Both the position numbers and the translations under genes were made by a program. A DNA stretch of 59,326 nucleotides. Source: Gordonia amarae NBRC 15530 (GTDB taxonomy: Bacteria > Actinomycetota > Actinomycetes > Mycobacteriales > Mycobacteriaceae). The notes under the pieces are model-generated. The model searched no databases. It worked only from the letters and a program-made list of their open reading frames with translations, and was not told the origin of the DNA. The stretch spans positions 1 through 59,326 of the forward strand of contig NZ_BAED01000021.1 of NCBI RefSeq assembly GCF_000241345.1. The letters are read 5' to 3'. How positions within the stretch are numbered: the stretch's first letter is position 1; the number at the start of each line of letters is the position of its first letter. Below are positions 11,104-32,991 of the stretch, piece by piece.

Positions 11104-11817
11104 TCAGCGGGCGGGTTGCGCCGCCTTGCCGAAGTAGGCCTGCCGCAACTCTTCCGAGTCCGCGGTCAACGTGTCGGCCGACCGGCGCAGGGTCACCTCG
11201 CCGTGCACCAGGACCACCGCCTCGTCGGCCACCTCCAGCGCCAGCGCCACATGCTGTTCGACGAGGATCACCGCGGTGCCCGTCGAGTCGGCGATATCGC
11301 GCACGATGGGCAGCAGCCCTTCGACGATCACCGGCGCCAGGCCCATGCTCATCTCGTCGATCAACAGCACCGCCGGCTTCTGCACCAGCGCCCGGGCCAC
11401 GGCCAGCATCTGCTGTTCGCCGCCGGAGAGGGCTCCTGCCTTGACTTTCCAGCGTTTGGTCAGCGCCGGGAACAGGTCGCGGATCTGGTCGGCGGTGACG
11501 CCGCCCTTACGCTGGGACAGCGTCAGCGTCTCGGCCACGGTCAGGCCGCCGAACAGGGCCCGGTTGTCGGGCACCAGCACCACACCGGACGAGTTGGTCT
11601 TGCCCGGGTTACCGCTGGGCAGCACCTGCCCGTTCACCGACACCGACCCACCGAGCCTCGGCAGCAGACCCGCCAGCGTCAGCATGACCGTGGTCTTGCC
11701 GGCACCGTTGGGACCCAGCAGCGCCAGTACTTTGCCGCTCTCGACCTCCAGGTCGAGACCACGCACCACCGGCACCTTGCCGTGCCCGGCGACCAGTTGA
11801 TCGACGCGAAGACTCAT
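11104..11817 (-). CDS. livF: Branched-chain-amino-acid-type ABC transporter ATP-binding protein LivF
   Basis: This 237-aa ABC ATPase has Walker A G35-P-N-G-A-G-K-T42, an LSGGEQQ signature, and Walker B VLLIDEMSMGLAP, the LivF-type variant of the HAAT family. With LivG it powers import of the solute captured by the lipoprotein encoded at 25456-26700. Its ATG overlaps the livG stop (ATGA), so translation is coupled. In this setting the solute is more likely a catabolic acid than an amino acid, but this is inference from context only. It is the last gene of the train. Confidence 0.9.
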   Translation of the reverse strand: MSLRVDQLVAGHGKVPVVRGLDLEVESGKVLALLGPNGAGKTTVMLTLAGLLPRLGGSVSVNGQVLPSGNPGKTNSSGVVLVPDNRALFGGLTVAETLTLSQRKGGVTADQIRDLFPALTKRWKVKAGALSGGEQQMLAVARALVQKPAVLLIDEMSMGLAPVIVEGLLPIVRDIADSTGTAVILVEQHVALALEVADEAVVLVHGEVTLRRSADTLTADSEELRQAYFGKAAQPAR

Positions 11818-12599
11818 AGCAGCACCTTTCCACCGGCCGGGTCGGTCTCGACCGCTCCGGGTGACTCATCAACCACCTCTTGCTGTTTCCCGCCCGAGTG
11901 GGAGGTACCCAGATAGGCCTGCATCACTGCGGTGTTGCTCAGGATCTCCTCCGGTGTGCCGCTGGCCAGTAGTTTGCCGAAGTCCAGGACGTGGATCTGG
12001 TCGCAGATGCTCATCACCAGGCCCATGTCGTGCTCCACCAGCAGGATCGTCACGCCGGTGCTGCGCAACGCCTTGAGCCGTTCACCGAGCCACAGGCTTT
12101 CGCTCGTGTCCAGGCCACCGGCCGGTTCGTCGAGCAGCAGTACCTTGGGTTTACCGGCCAGCGCCCGCGCGATGGACACCAGTTGCCGTTGCCCCTGTGA
12201 GAGCTGGGATGCGGCACTGTATTTCACCTCGGCAAGGCCCAAGGTATCGAAGATCTCGTCGAGTTCGGATTCGCCGACGTGACCTTCCCCGGCGCGGGCC
12301 GACAGGCCCACCGACACGTTCTCGGCGACACTGAGATCCTCGTACAGTTCGATTGCCTGGAAGGTCCGGCCCAGACCGGCCCGGACGCGCCGGTAGGTCT
12401 TGGTTCCGGTCAGAGTCGTCCCGGCCAGGCCCACGGTGCCTGTGGACGGCGCGAATCCGCTGATGGCGTCCATCAGGGTTGTCTTGCCGGCGCCGTTGGG
12501 ACCGATCAGCCCGACGATCGCGCCGCGTGGCAGGTCGAATCCGACACCGTCCACGGCCACCACGCCGCCGTAGCGGACGGTGACCTCGGACAGTGACAT
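11814..12599 (-). CDS. livG: ABC transporter ATP-binding domain LivG (formerly fused to LivM)
   Basis: From the internal ATG at 12599 this gives a 261-aa LivG-like ATPase with Walker A GPNGAGKT at 33-40, LSQGQRQ signature, and VLLLDEPAGGLD Walker B. The length fits a stand-alone LivG. The frame is continuous upstream with a LivM C-terminal piece through a 50-residue charged linker, so the ancestral protein was probably a LivM-LivG fusion. Because the permease part is interrupted, this domain may now be made only from the internal start, which has no strong Shine-Dalgarno. Confidence 0.82.
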   Translation of the reverse strand: MSLSEVTVRYGGVVAVDGVGFDLPRGAIVGLIGPNGAGKTTLMDAISGFAPSTGTVGLAGTTLTGTKTYRRVRAGLGRTFQAIELYEDLSVAENVSVGLSARAGEGHVGESELDEIFDTLGLAEVKYSAASQLSQGQRQLVSIARALAGKPKVLLLDEPAGGLDTSESLWLGERLKALRSTGVTILLVEHDMGLVMSICDQIHVLDFGKLLASGTPEEILSNTAVMQAYLGTSHSGGKQQEVVDESPGAVETDPAGGKVLL

Positions 12600-12969
12600 C
12601 GCGGGTGCGCCGCCGTCCTGTGTCGTGGTCGCCTCAGGATCCTCTTCTCGCCGAACCCTTCGCGACGCTCGCTCCTTCGTCGCATCGCCGTCAGCGATCA
12701 CGCTGGTCGTCGAGTCGACGGCCTCGGCGTCGCGTGCGGGTGTGCCACGCGCGAGCTTGCGGCCGAGCGCCAGCACCGGACCCGCGATGCCCTCCGGGTT
12801 GAACAGGACCACCACGATCAGGGCGAGACCGATGAGCACCTGGTACAGGTCACCACCGCCGATCTTCTCCAGCGCGAAGACGAAAACACCTTCGGCGGCC
12901 AGGATTCCGCCGATCACGCCGCCGGTCACCGACGTGACACCGGCCAGGTAGACAGTCGCGAACAGCAGG
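12600..12969 (-). pseudogene. livM: LivM permease C-terminal remnant, cut off by the 6.1-kb insert
   Basis: The segment encodes LLFATVYLAGVTSVTGG, a further transmembrane helix, and the DLYQVLIGLALIVVVLFNPEG end typical of LivM, in frame with LivG. No start codon precedes it in its own right. Upstream of about 12969 the sequence belongs to a Mce-associated gene in another frame; the open frame continuing to 13292 is chance. The missing N-terminal half lies at 19056-20746. Confidence 0.85.
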
Positions 12970-13159
12970 CGACGGCCAGAGCCAGAGCCGCCACGAGCAG
13001 CGCGGCGAGCGCGGCCTTGACCAGCCTGGTGCGGGCGATCGCGCGGGTCCACAGGTCGTCGGCGGCGGTGATCGCGGCCAGGCGGGCCTCGCGTTCGGCG
13101 GTGCGCACCCGGTCGCGGGCGGCGTCGAGCTCTGTGCGGGAAGTGTCGGTGCGGGTCAT
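12970..13159 (-). pseudogene. Truncated Mce-associated (Mas-like) membrane protein
   Basis: An ATG at 13159 overlaps the preceding gene's stop (ATGA) and begins MTRTDTSRTELDAARDRV, a charged coiled segment, followed by a single transmembrane helix (LAALLVAALALAVA). The homology ends at about 12970, where the sequence becomes livM. The extracytoplasmic domain of about 120 residues seen in the two neighbouring genes is missing. The frame runs on for 14 unrelated residues to a stop at 12926. This is one of the two cut ends of the insert. Confidence 0.72.
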
Positions 13160-13656
13160 ACGGTCTGCTCCACCCGTGCGAGCTTCCAGGTGTCCCCGGA
13201 CCGGACCAGCCGTATCCACAGGGTGCGGGTGCCGGTCTCGGCCTTCCCGGAGTCGGCGGTGGTGACCACGTCGAACGCGGTGAGCGTCGCACCCCAGCCG
13301 GGACCGGCGTCGATGACCGCCGACGCCGTCGGCCGCCACTGGATGCTCCGCACGCCCGACGCCGGGGTGCCCCGCAGCAGCGAACCGTAGGTGGCGGCGA
13401 AATCGTCGGTCACCAGCGACGCCACGCTGTCCTTCTTGCCGGCGGCGTCAACGGAGAACACCGCGGCGACGATGCGGCCGGACTCTGCGCGCAGGCCGTC
13501 CCGGTCGACGGCACCGTCGTTGTCGCGGGCCGCCACCGTCACCAGTGCGGCGAGCACGGCCACCACGAGGACCGCGACGGCCAGGGCCGCGGCCGCCGCG
13601 CGGGTGCCGATGATCGGGCGGCCGAGCACCGAACCGACTGCTCTGCGAATGCTCAT
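13156..13656 (-). CDS. Mce-associated-like membrane protein
   Basis: The 166-aa product has an N-terminal transmembrane helix (about residues 18-42) and an extracytoplasmic alpha/beta domain of the NTF2-like Mce-associated type (LRAESGRIVAAVFSVDAAG...DDFAATYGSLLRG). It overlaps both neighbours by ATGA, forming a tight three-gene operon. Such proteins normally accompany mce lipid-import operons and may stabilise the Mce complex, but no mce or yrbE gene is present here. Confidence 0.75.
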   Translation of the reverse strand: MSIRRAVGSVLGRPIIGTRAAAAALAVAVLVVAVLAALVTVAARDNDGAVDRDGLRAESGRIVAAVFSVDAAGKKDSVASLVTDDFAATYGSLLRGTPASGVRSIQWRPTASAVIDAGPGWGATLTAFDVVTTADSGKAETGTRTLWIRLVRSGDTWKLARVEQTV

Positions 13657-14240
13657 GGGAGGTACTGCACCGCCGCGAGTTTGGGACCGCCGTCGGAGTC
13701 GGTGAGCAGCACCCGCAGCCGGAACGCCTGCTCTCGCTCACGCTGGGAGCGGTTGTCCGGGGAACCGGTGAACCGGACCGTCGCCGCCACCAGGACGGTC
13801 GCGCCACCGGAGGTCCGGCCGCTGAGCGCCGCGCCGTCGACCGTGCCCTCGGCGACGGTGCCGCGCGACTTCACGAACGTCGTGTAGGCGTCGGCGGACT
13901 GGGCGAACTCGTCGTAGAACTCGCCGGTCGCCCCGGCCAGGATGCGTTGGGCGCGGCCCGGCTGCCGGTAATCGGGGCTCAGCAACAGCGTCACCCGATC
14001 GGTCGCGATGCGCTCGTACTCGGCGTCGGAGGTGCGGCCGGACTCCTGCGACCACCGCGCGATGCCCCAGCCCGCGAGGGCCAGCGACAGCACCACCGCG
14101 ACAACCGCCGCCCACCGCCACCACCGGGCCGGAGGCGGTGCGGCGCCCGCCCGGACCTCGGCGTCGCGCAGGTCGTCGACGGCCTCCCGCAACGCGGCCC
14201 GGGCCGTGCGCTCACGCGCGAGAGCCTCGCTGCGCGCCAT
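13653..14240 (-). CDS. Mce-associated-like membrane protein
   Basis: A 195-aa protein from the ATG at 14240, chosen because GGGAGG lies 7 nt upstream (a GTG two codons earlier is less likely). It has a charged cytoplasmic N-terminus, one transmembrane helix (about 41-62) and an extracytoplasmic domain with the family pattern EYERIATDRVTLLLSPDY...FYDEFAQSADAY. It heads the operon of three related genes and is divergent from the amino-acid permease. Confidence 0.78.
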   Translation of the reverse strand: MARSEALARERTARAALREAVDDLRDAEVRAGAAPPPARWWRWAAVVAVVLSLALAGWGIARWSQESGRTSDAEYERIATDRVTLLLSPDYRQPGRAQRILAGATGEFYDEFAQSADAYTTFVKSRGTVAEGTVDGAALSGRTSGGATVLVAATVRFTGSPDNRSQREREQAFRLRVLLTDSDGGPKLAAVQYLP

Positions 14241-14403
14241 CGGCACCTCCCGTCGTGATAGTCCCGGCGTTGACCGTTCCCATTACAGTAACGGCCCCGA
14301 ATCTCGCGCCACATCGCGTGTTCACTGTGCGCCGGCCCATACCTCGGCGCACAATCAACCCCACAGGTCACAAGGAACGCGTCCCAAGCCGAGGAGACCC
14401 GGT

Positions 14404-16329
14404 ATGACACCACCAGCCCGGACGGTCCCGATCTCGATGTCCACGTTGTTCCGGCGCAAACCGGTCGCACCGCCGGGCAGCGCCGAGGCGCACGGTGAAG
14501 CGCACCTGGAACGCAGCATCACCACCTTCCAGCTGACCCTGTTCGGCGTGGGCGCCACCGTGGGCACCGGTATCTTCTTCGTCCTCCCCGAGGCCGTGCC
14601 CGACGCCGGGCCCGCGGTGATCATCGCCTTCCTCGTCGCCGGCCTGGCCGCCGGACTGGCCGCGATCTGCTACGCCGAGATGGCGTCGTCGGTTCCGGTG
14701 TCCGGATCGTCGTACTCCTACTCGTACGCGACGATGGGCGAGCTGGTGGCCATCGCGATCGGCGCCTGTCTGCTGCTGGAGTACGGGGTGTCGGCGGCGG
14801 CGACGGCCGTCGGGTGGAGCGGCTACCTCAACAAGCTGCTCGACAACCTGTTCGGATTTCAGTTCCCGCAGGCGCTGTCGGCGGCGCCGCTCACCGAGGA
14901 GGGCGTCGAGTCGGGCTGGTTCAACCTGCCCGCGGCCATCCTCGTCGCGCTGTGCTGTTTCCTGCTGATCCGCGGCGCGAGTGAGTCCGCGCGCACCAAC
15001 GCCATCATGGTGATCGTCAAATTGTGCGTGCTGGTGTTGTTCGCGGGCATCGCATTCACCGCCTTCTCCACCGACCATTTCGCGGGTTTCTCCCCGTTCG
15101 GCGCGGTCGGTATCACCGCCGCCGCCGGGGCGATCTTCTTCTCCTTCATCGGCCTCGACGCGGTGTCCACCGCCGGCGACGAGGTGAAAGACCCGCAGAA
15201 GGCGATGCCGCGGGCCATCATGGGCGCGCTGATCACCGTCGTCACCGTCTATCTGCTGGTCGCGGTCGCCGGTATCGGCGCGCAGGCCTGGCCCAAGTTC
15301 GCCTCGCCCGACCAGTCCGAGGCCGGGCTCGCGGTGATCATCGAGCGCATCACCGAGTCGACGTGGCCGGGCACCCTGCTCGCCGCGGGCGCGGTGATCT
15401 CGATCTTCTCGGTGACGCTGGTGGTGCTGTACGGGCAGACCCGCATCCTGTTCGCGATGGGCCGTGACGGGCTGCTACCGGACAGGTTCGCGCAGGTCAG
15501 CACCAAGACCATGACCCCCGTCTGGAACACCGTCGTGGTGTGTGTGGTGGTGGGTCTGCTGGCCGGGCTGCTGCCGATCGGCAAACTCATCGACATGGTG
15601 TCCATCGGGACGCTCGCCGCGTTCAGCGTCGTCTCCGCCGGGGTGCTCATCCTGCGCAACACGATGCCCGACCTGGAGCGCTCGTTCCGGGTGCCCGGCT
15701 ACCCGGTCACCCCGATCCTGTCGATCGCCGCGTGCCTGTGGATCCTGTCGGGCCTCAAGCTGGTCACCTATCTGGCATTCGCGCTGTGGGTGCTGGTGTT
15801 CGTTGCCATCTACCTGGTGTGGGGCCGCAAATCCAGCAAACTCAACCACCTGACCGCCGAACAACTCGACGCCGGTGACACCACACCGCTCGGGTCCCGC
15901 TTCAAGGTCTGGACGGGCGTGCTCGTCGTGGCCGGGGTGGCGTTCTTCGCGTTCGGCGCCGTCTACAACCACGGCGACCACAACAAGAACGCCGCCACCC
16001 TCACCGACACATCGGCGCTGCTCACCGACTGGTTCACCGCCGTCGATGCCAAGGACTGGGCCGCCGCCGGGGACCTCACCTGCGGTGGCACCCTCGGCAT
16101 GACCTCCGGCGAGCCGGTCACGCCCGGGCAGTTGTTCGGCGGCAAGTCCTACGACCCCACCACGGTCGGTCTGATCAAGGTGCCGCAAGCGGTCGGCGAC
16201 AACACCTTCGACGCGCAGTTCGACATCACCGAACGCAAACCCGACGACGACTTCCCGCCCGAGACCCGGATGTCGGCCGTGGTGCGGCTCGGCGACGCAC
16301 CGTGCGTGCAGCAGGTGAGCACGCGATGA
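14404..16329 (+). CDS. APC-family amino-acid permease with extracytoplasmic C-terminal domain
   Basis: A 641-aa protein from ATG 14404 (GAGGAG about 9 nt upstream). Residues of about 40-500 form a 12-helix APC transporter of the cationic amino acid type (GVGATVGTGIFFVLP, FSFIGLDAVSTAGDEVKDPQ, QTRILFAMGRDGLLP). A thirteenth helix (VWTGVLVVAGVAFFAFGAVY) then leads to about 110 residues with two Cys and an NTF2-like look (LLTDWFTAVDAKDWAAAGDLTC). By helix count this tail is outside. Such a tail is unusual for APC permeases and recalls the neighbouring Mce-associated proteins. Its stop overlaps the USP start. Confidence 0.87.
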   Translation: MTPPARTVPISMSTLFRRKPVAPPGSAEAHGEAHLERSITTFQLTLFGVGATVGTGIFFVLPEAVPDAGPAVIIAFLVAGLAAGLAAICYAEMASSVPVSGSSYSYSYATMGELVAIAIGACLLLEYGVSAAATAVGWSGYLNKLLDNLFGFQFPQALSAAPLTEEGVESGWFNLPAAILVALCCFLLIRGASESARTNAIMVIVKLCVLVLFAGIAFTAFSTDHFAGFSPFGAVGITAAAGAIFFSFIGLDAVSTAGDEVKDPQKAMPRAIMGALITVVTVYLLVAVAGIGAQAWPKFASPDQSEAGLAVIIERITESTWPGTLLAAGAVISIFSVTLVVLYGQTRILFAMGRDGLLPDRFAQVSTKTMTPVWNTVVVCVVVGLLAGLLPIGKLIDMVSIGTLAAFSVVSAGVLILRNTMPDLERSFRVPGYPVTPILSIAACLWILSGLKLVTYLAFALWVLVFVAIYLVWGRKSSKLNHLTAEQLDAGDTTPLGSRFKVWTGVLVVAGVAFFAFGAVYNHGDHNKNAATLTDTSALLTDWFTAVDAKDWAAAGDLTCGGTLGMTSGEPVTPGQLFGGKSYDPTTVGLIKVPQAVGDNTFDAQFDITERKPDDDFPPETRMSAVVRLGDAPCVQQVSTR

Positions 16330-17210
16330 CGATCCTGGTCGGCTACGTGCCCGGTGAGGGTGGGGCGGGCGGCATCCAGCTCGGTGCGATGCTGGCCGAA
16401 TCCCTCGACACCGACCTGGTGATCGCGACGGTGGCACCCACCCCGTGGACCACGCCGTCGCTCGCACGGGTCGACGCGGAGTTCCTGGACTGGACCGACC
16501 AATTCATCGACCAGGCGTTCTCCGAGGTCACCGCCCACATGAACATCTATCCGGCGGCGCTGACCTGGAGCTTCGACCGGCTCGACCATCGCACCGCGTC
16601 GGCCGCGCTGGCCGCCCACGCCAAGGAGATCGGGGCGGCCGCGGTGGTGCTCGCGTCCACCGGCGACGGGCAGCTCGGGCAGATCGTCGTCGGATCTACC
16701 GCCGATGCGCTGCTGCACCGTTCCGAGGTGGCTGTCGCGCTCAGTCCGCGCGGCTACCGCTCGCCGCGGGACGGGCTGCTCACCCGGGTCACCGCCGCCA
16801 TCGCCGGCGACGACCCGCAGGACCGGACGGTCCTCACCAACGCGCATATGCTGGCCGACGAGATGACCGCACCGCTGCGGGTGGTGACGTTCGCGGTGCG
16901 CGGCGGCGCCATGTACCCGCCGCTGGTGGGCCTGGCAGGCGAGTCCGACGTCCTCGATCAGTGGGTGGAGCAGTCGGCTCAGGCCCACGAGGCCCTGCGC
17001 GCCGACGGCCTGATCACCGACGACACCGTCACCGAGATCGCCACCGGCCGCGGCTGGCGCGAGGCCGTCGACTCCCTCGACTGGCAGGGCGGCGAGGTCA
17101 TGCTGATCGGCAGCACCCGCGAAGGTCCGCTGCGCCGGGTGTTCATCGGCTCCCGCTCCACCAAACTGATCCGGCACTCCCCCGTCCCGGTGGTCGTGCT
17201 GCCGAAGTGA
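16326..17210 (+). CDS. Universal stress protein-like protein
   Basis: A 294-aa protein from ATG 16326, which overlaps the permease stop (ATGA). Two tandem USP-like alpha/beta domains are visible: MTILVGYVPGEGG...AAVVLASTGDGQLGQIVVGSTADALLHRSEVAVALSP, and a second ending EVMLIGSTREGPLRRVFIGSRSTKLIRHSPVPVVVLPK. The G-x2-G-x9-G-S/T nucleotide-loop pattern is recognisable in the second domain. Translational coupling suggests it senses nucleotide or stress state and modulates the permease, as other APC permease-USP pairs are thought to do. Confidence 0.85.
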   Translation: MTILVGYVPGEGGAGGIQLGAMLAESLDTDLVIATVAPTPWTTPSLARVDAEFLDWTDQFIDQAFSEVTAHMNIYPAALTWSFDRLDHRTASAALAAHAKEIGAAAVVLASTGDGQLGQIVVGSTADALLHRSEVAVALSPRGYRSPRDGLLTRVTAAIAGDDPQDRTVLTNAHMLADEMTAPLRVVTFAVRGGAMYPPLVGLAGESDVLDQWVEQSAQAHEALRADGLITDDTVTEIATGRGWREAVDSLDWQGGEVMLIGSTREGPLRRVFIGSRSTKLIRHSPVPVVVLPK

Positions 17211-17217
17211 CGGCGTA

Positions 17218-17278
17218 AACCCCACGAATACGCCCCGGCATCGCAATTATTGTGATGTCGGAGCGTATTCGTGGGGTT
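17218..17278. terminator. Long perfect-stem hairpin after the USP gene
   Basis: Perfect 16-bp arms (17218-17233 and 17263-17278) enclose a second 8-bp arm pair with one G-U match, giving a stem of about 24 bp. It starts 8 bp after the USP stop. There is no T tract on either side, so it may be a repeat element or RNA-processing stem rather than a classical terminator. Confidence 0.6.
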
Positions 17279-17309
17279 CCGGCCGGCACCGTCGCATAGC
17301 CTGTGCCAC

Positions 17310-19062
17310 ATGACGTCGTGGCGAAGGATCAGAGGACTGAGCTACAGCACGATCGGGCGCACCGTACGGGCGCGGGTACACACGAGCAACGGCGGTGAAC
17401 ACCTCGTGCGGTTCGATCCACCGGCCTTGTGGAGGCTGGAAAGTCCGGACGGCACAACGCAACTGGTGGAGAACGAGACGGACGAGTATCGGGTCCGCGA
17501 CGACGGCGTCGCCGTGCACGCGCATAAGGCACCGAACCGTGTCGTGATGATGATGGGTCTGAACCCGATGCAGCTCTTCACGATGTACCGATGGTGGCCG
17601 GAACCCGGCCCGATGGCGCGGCCACGGGTCGGCGCGGCGAGCGACCCGGTTGCCACGACCGTGCGCGGCCGCAGCGGCTGGCAGGTGGAGTTCGACGATC
17701 CGCAAGGCGCACAACCGATCACAGTGGTCATCGACCAGGACCTCGGCGTCTGCCTCGCGTGGCGGCAGGGCGGGCAATGGCTGGAGATGTCCGAACCGGT
17801 ACTCGATGAGGACTTCGACCCGGCACTCTTCACCTGGGACGGTCCCACGATCGAGGAGGAGGAACACGCCGAGGCGCAGGCCCAGTCGCAGGCGCAACGC
17901 GATTACGAACAGCAGATGCGCGACCTCGCGGACATGCCGCAGACCCAGGTCGGCTGGTTCCCGACCACGATCCATACGTCTGCGGTGGATGGTGACGCGC
18001 TGACCGGTGCGCTCGACATCACGGCCACAACCGGTTCCGCCCAGTTCGCCATCAGACGCTGGCTGACCGGGCTCGACGAACCCGAGCCCGGCTTCAGCGT
18101 GCAATCGTATACGGTGCAGGGCCGCAGGGAGAGCGGTCCGTGGACGGTCGAGGTGCGGACATACGCCGCGGCGCTGTCACCTGACGATCTCGAACGCGTC
18201 TTCGCGCAGTTGTCGCTACCCGATCCGCCCGGAACGATCGACGACGTCGCGGCGGCGGCTGCGGACCGCCGATCGGAACAGGAAGAACGCGAGACCACCG
18301 AACTGCTCGGAACCGGACGCGAGCTCGGCGACTACCTGCACGCCGACAACTATGCCGCGCTGCTCATCCGCACCGACTTCACCGACGACCAGCGGTGGCG
18401 GGAGGTGGCGCTCGCGGCCACCGCCTCGGTGGACAGTGGCGACGAGTTCCCCTTCCAGGCCAACCTGACCTGCATCGACAACCCGGACAACGCGGGCCTG
18501 ACCCCCGAGCAGCTCCGCGCCCGGATCGGCGATGACCCGCCCTCGTTCGCCTTCCTCGCCGACACGGTCACCATGACCGACCCGGAGATGCCGATCATCG
18601 CCCTCGACTGCGGCGACCCCGAGTACGACGAGCCCGGCCGGACCTTCCGCATCATCCCGTCCGAGATGTGGGGAATCGAGAACAACCTGTCCATCGCCAA
18701 CATGGACTTCCGGGACTTCGCCGACTCCGCCGCCGACGACGGCGTGTTCCGCGGTTTCCCGCCGCCACCACCGCACGTCGCGACGTTGCAGCGCGAGGAG
18801 TTGCTGGCGCTCAGTGCCACCAACCACTCGACGCCGGCGCTCGCACGCTTCGCCGACGACCTGCCCACCATCGAGCACGCATACGCGGTCATCTCCGAGA
18901 TGCCCCGGATGAGACTTCACACGTCGATCGCCGATCTCGAGCCTCGTTCCGACGAGTACATACTCGGTGACGACGACTATCTCGCCGCCACCGCCCGCGA
19001 TGGTGTGTGCCACTCTGGATTTGTCCAGATCAGAGGCGGCCACTGGAGCACGCCCAGCAGGA
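17310..19062 (+). pseudogene. DUF6924-like protein with N-terminal extension, 3' end cut by insertion boundary
   Basis: The ATG at 17310 opens a protein of about 585 genuine residues. The N-terminal 170 residues look like a beta-rich LolA-like or lipoprotein-chaperone fold without a signal peptide. A Glu/Gln-rich linker and a second beta-rich segment follow. Residues of about 350-477 match the DUF6924 pattern (LLIRTDFTDDQRWREV ... FRIIPSEMWGIENNLSIANMDFRDFAD). The frame continues to a stop at 19097, but its last residues are antisense livM, so the native C-terminus is lost. Function unknown. Confidence 0.65.
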
Positions 19063-20746
19063 CCGCGAACGGCTGGAACGACACATTGGTCTGCTGATAC
19101 GCCAGCAGGGTGCCACCGAGACCGGCGATGAACGCACCGATCCCGAAGGCTGCCAGTTTGGTCGCGGTCACGTTCACACCCGATGCCGCGGCCGAGCGTT
19201 CGTTGGCACGTACGGCCAGCATTCGGGTGCCCAGGCGACTGCGCCGCAAATACACCACACCGATGGCCACGATTACCGCCACGACCAGGCACAGCATCCC
19301 GAACGCAGCCCGCGGATACTCGCCACCGGTGCCGATGCCCAGATTCAGACCGAAGATCGACGGAGACGGCACGTCGATACCGGACGAGTCCACGAAGTCG
19401 GTATTACGGAACCAGAACGCCTCCAGCGTGTACGCCATCGTCAGCGTCACCACCGCCACCGTGAGGCCGCGGATCCGCAAGGCGGGCAAGCCGATCACCA
19501 CACCGATGACGGCGGCCAATACGGCGGCCAGCAGCGGCGCGATCGGGAACGGCACATTCCAGCTCGTGGTGATCGGGCCCACCAGGAACGCCGCGACACC
19601 GGCGATCGCCAGCTGCGCGAGAGACACCTGACCGGCGTAACCGGTGACCACCACCTGCGACAGGCCGATCACCGTCATGATGATCGTGGTGATCACCGCC
19701 ATACGCCAATCCCCGCCCGCCACAAGCAAAACCACCACACCGGCCACCGCCGCCGCGGGCACCCAGTACTTCAGGTGCCGCGGATACGGGGCGTTGCCCA
19801 GTTCGGAGACGATCACGGCGCCGCGCGAGTGCAGCGGCTTGGCCCACGCGACCAGCACCACCAGAACCACGATCAGCGGCACCAGCTCCACCAGTCCCGT
19901 GGACGGCAGCCAGTCGTAGACGCGCGGCAGGTAGGTGGCCTCGGACTGCAGCATGCCGATCGCCAGACCGGCCACGACCGCCACCAGGATCGAGGAGAAC
20001 CGCCCGATGATCGCCGCGGCGAGCGCCGGCACGATGAACAGGGTGTAGGCATAGGGGGTGAGCGGAACGATCGGCGAGATCAGAATCCCCGCCAGGCCGG
20101 AGACGGCCGAACCGATCATCCAGTTCGCGGCCGCGATCTTGTCCGGCGACAAACCGCTGACGTACGCACCCTCTTCGCTTTCCGACGCCGCGCGGGTGGC
20201 CAGCCCGAACCGGGTGAACCGGTAGGCGCCGGCCAGCACGACGGCGATCACGACGATGGTGACCGCGAACAGCACGCGGTCCTGCGGAACCCGCATCCCA
20301 CCGAATTCCAGGATGTCGACAGGGAAGATCGCATCGACGGCCGGCCCCTTGGTACCGAGCTGCGCGGTGGTGAGCGCGGCGAAGATGATCATCACACCGA
20401 TCGAGGCGACGGTCCGCGCCACCGGCGGCGCCTTACGCAGCGGACGGAAGATCAACAGGTACAACACGAGTCCGAGGACCGCGCACAGGGCCATCGAAAT
20501 CACGGCGGCACCGAAGAACCCGGGATCCCCGCCGATGTCGACACTGTCCGGGAACCCGGGGATCACGATGAGCAGCTCACCCTGACGCAGATACGCGTAG
20601 GTGTAGGCGCCGAACAACGCGAGCGATCCGGTGGCGAAGTTCATCACCCCGGAGCTGCGGTAGATCACCACCAGGGCCAGGGCCAGGGCGGCGAACACGC
20701 CACCCGACCCGAGTCCGAGCAGTAGGAACTGAAGATGATCGGTCAT
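19056..20746 (-). pseudogene. livH: LivH-LivM fusion permease, 3' truncated by the insert
   Basis: The ATG at 20746 follows AAGGAG by 8 nt. Residues 1-290 are a LivH permease (SGVMNFATGSLALFGAY, LGLVLYLLIFRPLR) and from about 320 a LivM permease begins (GLSQVVVTGYAGQVSLAQLAIAGVAAF). It is cut after FQPFAVLL at the CAGCAGG repeat. The frame then runs through insert sequence to a stop at 18977. Joined to 11814-12969 it would form a single LivH-LivM-LivG protein of about 945 aa. As it stands, the last LivM helices are missing and transport is probably lost unless the two parts assemble. Confidence 0.85.
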
Positions 20747-20941
20747 TGCTGCGCTCCTTGGTTGAGCGAGGCTCGGTCCGACCATCGGCCGGGATTCGGC
20801 TGCATGGCGCCTCCAATACGAATTCCTCTTGCGGGCTGCCGGAAGAGGGCGTGACGGCCACGCGGGAGATCGTTCCTCGCTGCGGCCTGATGTGGCTGTG
20901 ATGTACCCGGGCACGTCGGGTCACTGGTGAATACCGTCACA

Positions 20942-32061: not shown

Positions 32062-32991
32062 ATGCCGCTCGATCCAGACGCCCAGGCCATAGCCGACGCC
32101 GTCGCGCAGATGCCCGCCCTCCACGAGTTGGGTCTCGAAGGGGCACGTGAGCTCACCAAACTCGCCGATTTCCCCGCCGAGACCGAGATCACCGACGTCC
32201 GCGAGATCACCGTCCCCACCCCCGCCGGGGACCTCCCGGCCCGCGTCTACCATCCGAACCCCCGTGCGGCACTACCGATCCTGCTGTATATGCACGGTGG
32301 CGGGTGGGCCACCGGCGGCCTGTGGACCGCGGACGAGACCTGCCGCAGGCTCGCCGCGCAGGGCTCGTGCGTGGTGGTCAACCTCGACTACCGGCTGGCC
32401 CCGGAACACAAGTTCCCGGCGCCCTTCGAGGACGCCTACAACGCGGCGACATGGCTGAGCGAGCACGGCGACGAGATCGGCGGCGATCGGACCCGGCTCG
32501 CACTCGGCGGCGACAGCGCCGGCGCGAACCTCTCGGCCGCGGTCGCCATCCACGCCCGCGACCACGACGGCCCGGCGATCACTGCCCTGCTGCTGGCCTA
32601 CCCGTCCGCCGAGTACGCGGTGGAGCGCCCGTCCTGGATCGAGTGCGCGGACGCGCCGATGCTGTGCACCAAGGACGTGCTGTGGTTCTGGGATTTCTAC
32701 CTCCGCGACGAGGCCGACCGCACCGATCCGCGGGCCACCCCGGCCAATGCCGAGTCGCTGGCGGGCCTGCCGTCCGCTTTCGTGCTGACCGCGGAGACCG
32801 ACCCACTGCGTGATGACGGCGAGGCCTTCGCCGCCGCGATGCAGGCGGCCGGCAATCATGTGGTCGTCAAGCGCTACCCAGGTGTCTTCCACGGATTCTT
32901 CACCATGCCGATGCTCACGCGATCGAAGACGGCGGTCGGTGACGCCGCCCGGTTCCTCAGCCGGCGCTTCGCCACCCGCGATCCCGCCTGA
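32062..32991 (+). CDS. Alpha/beta-hydrolase esterase, HSL (type IV) family
   Basis: A 309-aa protein from ATG 32062; the ATG at 32056 is only 2 nt from AGGAG and is less likely. It shows the oxyanion H78-G-G-G81 motif, nucleophile S152 in GDSAG, D247 in ETDPLRDDG and H277 in VFHGFF. It hydrolyses small esters or lactones. Directly upstream of a Baeyer-Villiger monooxygenase, it most likely opens the ester or lactone that enzyme makes. Confidence 0.91.
   Translation: MPLDPDAQAIADAVAQMPALHELGLEGARELTKLADFPAETEITDVREITVPTPAGDLPARVYHPNPRAALPILLYMHGGGWATGGLWTADETCRRLAAQGSCVVVNLDYRLAPEHKFPAPFEDAYNAATWLSEHGDEIGGDRTRLALGGDSAGANLSAAVAIHARDHDGPAITALLLAYPSAEYAVERPSWIECADAPMLCTKDVLWFWDFYLRDEADRTDPRATPANAESLAGLPSAFVLTAETDPLRDDGEAFAAAMQAAGNHVVVKRYPGVFHGFFTMPMLTRSKTAVGDAARFLSRRFATRDPA

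Follow-up and report, generated by a model that had tools for sequence, protein, structure and literature searches.

A gene block inserted in the livHMG gene of Gordonia amarae, with its probable donor scar on another contig

Gene relocation in bacterial genomes is as a rule deduced only when its scars have long since decayed. In Streptomyces ambofaciens, five captures of endogenous DNA, ranging from 30 bp to 18.8 kb, have been described at I-SceI breaks, and the scars reported there carry short microhomologies, single-nucleotide additions or the fill-in of 1–4 nt; the largest of the five insertions, 18.8 kb in length, came from a ligCD mutant (PMC5869714). The gene considered here codes for a LivHMG fusion, a branched-chain amino acid ABC transporter in which two permeases and an ATPase form a single chain, mostly of about 905–990 aa among 120 proteins listed, which include proteins from Gordonia, Nocardia and Frankia. 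In the single-contig genome of a relative from the same genus (G021), the gene for a second ATPase, LivF, adjoins the fusion. In contrast to these fusions, the livHMG gene described below is split, and its product is predicted from the sequence to be inactive. The gene is located in the window, that is, the whole stretch of 59,326 nucleotides that was analysed, which is contig C63 of the 5.3-Mb draft genome of Gordonia amarae NBRC 15530 (G000, 83 contigs).

The split livHMG gene and its breakpoints

The piece coding for LivH and most of LivM and the piece coding for the end of LivM and LivG are one gene, whose parts lie about 6.1 kb apart (Table 1). This bears out a preliminary description of the locus, in which a livHMG fusion split by an insert of about 6.1 kb had been recognized and an uninterrupted LivHMG protein at the same locus in related genomes had been named as a check. 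Such a protein is encoded in G021, where locus L059 carries the whole fusion (P0086, 986 aa) and where the neighbours match those in the window: LivF adjoins the fusion at one end, and the other end is followed by the same genes as in the window, which we take to be dehydrogenase-complex genes. Alignment of the junction to G021 places the breakpoints at 12968/12969 and 19046/19047. When the flanks are joined at these points and AG is kept once, 2853 nt are obtained that encode, in frame, a LivH-LivM-LivG protein of 950 aa, and in alignments of this protein with all four uninterrupted proteins tested the junction is free of gaps (identities of 817/950 to P0086, 886/950 to P0087, 747/949 to P0088 and 656/923 aligned residues to P0089). 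The continuous permease-permease-ATPase frame is therefore broken in the window and unbroken in G021 and in P0086–P0089. The native LivHM part is identical to P0086 of G021 at 516/560 residues and to the uninterrupted homologue P0087 at 533/560 residues, and the piece at 11814..12968 is 77% identical to residues 567–957 of P0086. Beyond 19047, the tail of P0110, the protein with the LivH and LivM part, consists of insert sequence and is read from the antisense strand of a DUF6924 gene.

The preliminary description had set the junctions at 12969 and 19056, had taken two copies of CAGCAGG as their borders and had expected an in-frame protein of about 945 aa after removal of the insert with one copy. 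Both copies exist, but native LivM encodes VLLGVLLFATV at the junction, so that the right copy (19056-19062) lies inside native livM, and a join made via the repeat has 2840 nt, is out of frame and yields 575 aa. A target duplication of 7 bp is thus ruled out by the reading frame and by the relatives. The repeat is not notable in itself, since a 7-mer common to two random window sites within 15 bp was obtained in 8% of 5,000 trials. What holds of the earlier reading is the precise insertion, together with a transposase not being found among the block genes searched; the duplication or microhomology of 7 bp does not hold. In 20,000 random insertions, an overlap of at least 2 bp arose in 19% and one of at least 7 bp in 0.045%, and hence the AG overlap requires no special cause; microhomology as the driver of the insertion was rejected on the same chance expectation. 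The empty target in G021 reads AA where AG is expected in the window's genome, and the empty site of the species itself is deduced from the frame and from G021 rather than from a sister strain.

Proteins matching P0086 at E 1e-100 or better are encoded in 40 of the 59 genus genomes searched. Beyond the window's genome, an identity of at least 76% is reached in G021, with two copies, and in G046 (residues 1–638), each as one open frame. The second copy in G021 (L060, C1:5083127-5085928) codes for a protein that is 81% identical to the first. Three further LivHM-type matches, with 53–56% identity, remain in the window's genome on contigs C62 (with an ATPase part), C25 and C38, and the loss of LivHMG is for this reason probably tolerated. 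The frames of both livHMG pieces are still open, and given the closeness of P0087 the block probably moved after the split from the sister lineage of P0087.

As a separate observation, the coding stretch that links LivM to LivG contains a dispersed repeat (12634-12712, core of about 53 bp), which is matched at no fewer than 33 further places in the genome with 74–89% identity, among 40 scored candidates. The DNA of G021 fails to align across this stretch, which looks like a repeat turned into coding sequence.

Table 1. Features of the split livHMG gene and of the inserted block (positions in the window)
Feature	Positions	Strand	Basis or remark
LivF, second ATPase gene, adjoins LivG	11104..11817	minus	same order in L059
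LivM end and whole LivG domain, without own start	11814..12968	minus	match to P0086
CAGCAGG copy 1, incidental	12963..12969	plus	
AG, left edge of block, 2-bp overlap	12967..12968	plus	junction comparison
Moved block, 6,078 bp	12969..19046	.	empty target in G021; donor scar in contig C4
Small membrane-protein gene, first 63 codons + 2 nt	12969..13159	minus	other 146 codons in C4
Second small membrane-protein gene, intact	13156..13656	minus	synteny with G021; no Pfam match
Third small membrane-protein gene, intact	13653..14240	minus	no Pfam match, no NCBIfam match
Amino acid permease, APC type, intact	14404..16329	plus	Pfam PF13520, 1.1e-45
Universal stress protein, intact	16326..17210	plus	Pfam PF00582, 2.8e-23
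Dispersed hairpin repeat within block, 1.8 kb from nearer edge	17217..17279	.	
DUF6924 gene, first 579 codons	17310..19046	plus	last 23 codons in C4
LivH and most of LivM	18977..20746	minus	native to 19047, then tail from insert; 589 aa, P0110
AG, right edge of block, 2-bp overlap	19047..19048	plus	junction comparison
CAGCAGG copy 2, incidental, within native livM	19056..19062	plus	

The donor scar and the genes of the block

The insert ends within a host gene on either side, a small membrane-protein gene at one end and a DUF6924 gene at the other, and the missing halves of the two genes lie on contig C4 of this genome, directly joined and in opposite orientation, at 32984/32985. A full-length homologue of the membrane protein from G010, used as the query, matches the window (residues 3–76) and C4:33013-33402 (residues 87–223), with a weak third match on C19. 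The closest intact relative is P0207, which has a 90% match to the C4 piece. With P0207 as the query, matches were obtained in 40 of 61 genomes, and the protein is in one piece in the closest relatives, G067 and G021; in the window's genome the match is split between C4 (residues 78–228) and C63 (residues 16–84).

For the accounting at the donor, the window and C4 pieces were each compared separately with intact relatives. The window piece of the DUF6924 gene ends, and the C4 piece, of which 18 of the 23 residues align, begins, at consecutive residues in all seven relatives tested. In the case of the membrane-protein gene, the C4 piece comprises 1 nt and 146 codons and the window piece ends 2 nt into a codon, and in three of four relatives exactly one residue lies between the pieces, its codon being split 2+1 by the break, as is expected if nothing was lost; for P0208 this count involves an alignment extended by one residue. 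In the remaining relative, P0209, about five residues lie between the pieces, with the alignment extended by six residues. The seven of seven and three of four comparisons suggest that the donor was closed without the loss of a residue, and the C4 scar, as read from the junctions, has no homology in common.

The gene order in relatives points to the same region of origin. In G021, a single locus contains genes for a reductase, small membrane proteins, a permease, a stress protein and TetR, 3.3 Mb from the livHMG gene of that genome, or 1.9 Mb the other way if the 5.15-Mb chromosome is circular, and the order on C4 is reductase, membrane-protein remnants, scar and TetR. The membrane-protein genes, the permease and the stress protein are also kept together in G010. 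The entire 6,078-bp block is in place in none of the relatives examined. The DUF6924 gene is present in 11 of 59 genus genomes, and as G021 has no such gene above E 1e-30, either G021 has lost it or the window's lineage acquired it ahead of the move. Judging from these comparisons of sequence, the insert is not foreign DNA but a block cut from another place in the same genome, a point absent from the preliminary description. The database entry for the DUF6924 protein, P0001, stands for 1 contig and 5 member sequences. In G007, the DUF6924 homologue (L062, 9319-10776) has an in-frame TAG stop before its end and in G017 a TAA, which may reflect decay of the gene in some species.

The three small membrane proteins of the block are presumably of the Mce-associated type. 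Neither the two intact proteins nor P0207, the intact homologue of the truncated one, matched a Pfam family, and NCBIfam likewise gave no match for the protein at 13653..14240 or for P0207. In the window's genome there are 55 matches to MlaD/Mce domains, most of them grouped in a cluster-like manner, on contigs C4, C19, C23, C26, C38, C50, C61, C72 and C73. Rfam families gave 0 matches at gathering scores in 11800-20800. A search of the genome revealed no second copy of the block, the other matches being short repeats or stretches, the longest of 222 bp at 69%, and a duplication with the original left in place was rejected on this basis. Between the stress-protein and DUF6924 genes lies a near-perfect hairpin (17217-17279) with 28 base pairs in its main stem, within a region (17212-17282) that folds at -50.3 kcal/mol with a z of -8.9; the genome contains no fewer than 15 other matches to this hairpin, which itself has no Rfam match.

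Cut-and-paste by end joining and alternative routes

We hypothesize, with a probability of roughly 0.7, that the block moved in one cut-and-paste event in which three double-strand breaks were sealed by Ku/LigD end joining. Two breaks at the donor would free a linear fragment of 6,078 bp and a third would open livM, after which end joining would close the donor and trap the fragment in livM. The extra AG could have arisen if a single 2-nt overhang was filled in, be it that of the opened target or that of the block's DUF6924 end. The predicted outcome is that the permease and stress-protein genes travel intact, while the two end genes are lost together with LivHMG activity. The donor site no longer holds the block and has been closed where the block's ends lay, and because the deletion and the insertion have identical end points, a single conservative event explains the findings most simply. 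The joins have 0–2 bp in common and no long homology. Non-homologous end joining (NHEJ) is proposed as the likely mechanism because the genome possesses neighbouring genes for Ku (C34:29043-29585, PF02735, E 1.2e-49) and LigD (LigD_N, C34:30878-31180, PF13298, E 8.5e-42), with about 1.3 kb between the two matches. What speaks against this account is that three joins without any loss would be cleaner than the Streptomyces scars as described, with their deletions, additions and microhomologies (PMC5869714). Moreover, Ku/LigD would not be the sole route to such captures, since the 18.8-kb Streptomyces insertion was obtained in a ligCD mutant; the precedent, as far as it is described there, covers break capture in general, and the NHEJ label for the present event is our own.

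The main rival is a transposase or site-specific recombinase acting in trans, by which the block would have been mobilized like a cryptic transposon, with the donor left clean and 2 bp of the target duplicated. A clean excision, a precise insertion and AG on both sides do have the outward form of cut-and-paste transposition, but no transposase or recombinase family was detected with Pfam among the five complete or nearly complete proteins of the block and the intact homologue of the sixth, the block has no second copy in the genome, and a direct overlap of at least 2 bp arose in 19% of the random insertions described above. Terminal inverted repeats were likewise rejected, as those of the block score 13, which was equalled by 115 of 2000 random pairs and is within chance. 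To our knowledge, there is no transposon family that a 2-bp AG duplication would fit, which also counts against this route, and we consider it unlikely. A 2-bp recombinase core common to the three sites was discarded as well, since it accounts for one of them, but the donor scar and the left junction of the target each have one base more than expected from it. It is similarly improbable that ordinary gene blocks of this lineage travel in a transposon-like manner, by a host activity that excises kilobases, closes the donor base-perfectly and pastes with a 2-bp duplication. Quite improbable, too, is a two-step history, in which livM first received a copy of the block by illegitimate integration, with a lysed sibling as one possible source of the DNA, and the original copy disappeared through a later deletion. 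Deletion and insertion have both end points in common, which is unexpected for independent events, even if DNA capture at breaks has a precedent in actinobacteria (PMC5869714).

Recombination between short repeats could be considered because one dispersed repeat occurs within the block and another 257 bp away from the left breakpoint of the target, but neither repeat family is found at a breakpoint. As the target edges share only 2 bp and the donor scar shows no shared bases, homologous recombination is a highly unlikely cause of the move. The genome is a draft in 83 pieces, and unrelated sequences might have been joined in it, an assembly chimera being what the preliminary description had itself named as fatal to its reading. 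Such an artefact is disfavoured and has very little probability, as the three joins are mutually consistent and the breakpoints lie inside contigs and not on the two dispersed repeats. In addition, P0110 with its chimeric tail stands for 22 contigs by the cluster count of the database, the longest having 5,395,088 bases, and P0206, the protein across the C4 scar, comes from a contig of 5,374 bases, as against 103,157 for C4.

Comparison with known systems

The one-event reading by end joining would make the locus an unusual, natural case of break capture in which the scars at both donor and target can be read, and among the papers listed in literature searches there was nothing directly comparable that is natural, conservative and free of mobile elements. 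The significance of a conservative move of this kind, both of whose sites are resolved to the base or nearly so, in an actinobacterium with Ku and LigD, is that it suggests a testable route for the relocation of genes and the break-up of operons without mobile elements. It also suggests a rule for finding further cases, namely to search for inserts with truncated genes at both ends, the halves of which are joined elsewhere in the same genome.

With insertion sequences and composite transposons, the locus has in common a precise, gene-interrupting insertion with a short direct repeat. In contrast to such elements, the block is one for which a transposase, significant terminal inverted repeats and a second copy were not found, it ends inside two ordinary genes and its donor has been resealed. 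The captures in S. ambofaciens are closer, as they also concern an actinobacterium with a working NHEJ pathway, the insertion of chromosomal fragments, up to kilobases long, at breaks, and scars marked by short microhomology or fill-in of 1–4 nt; however, those described were induced in the laboratory and have deletions at their scars (PMC5869714), whereas the present event is natural, a loss is not apparent and both scars are readable.
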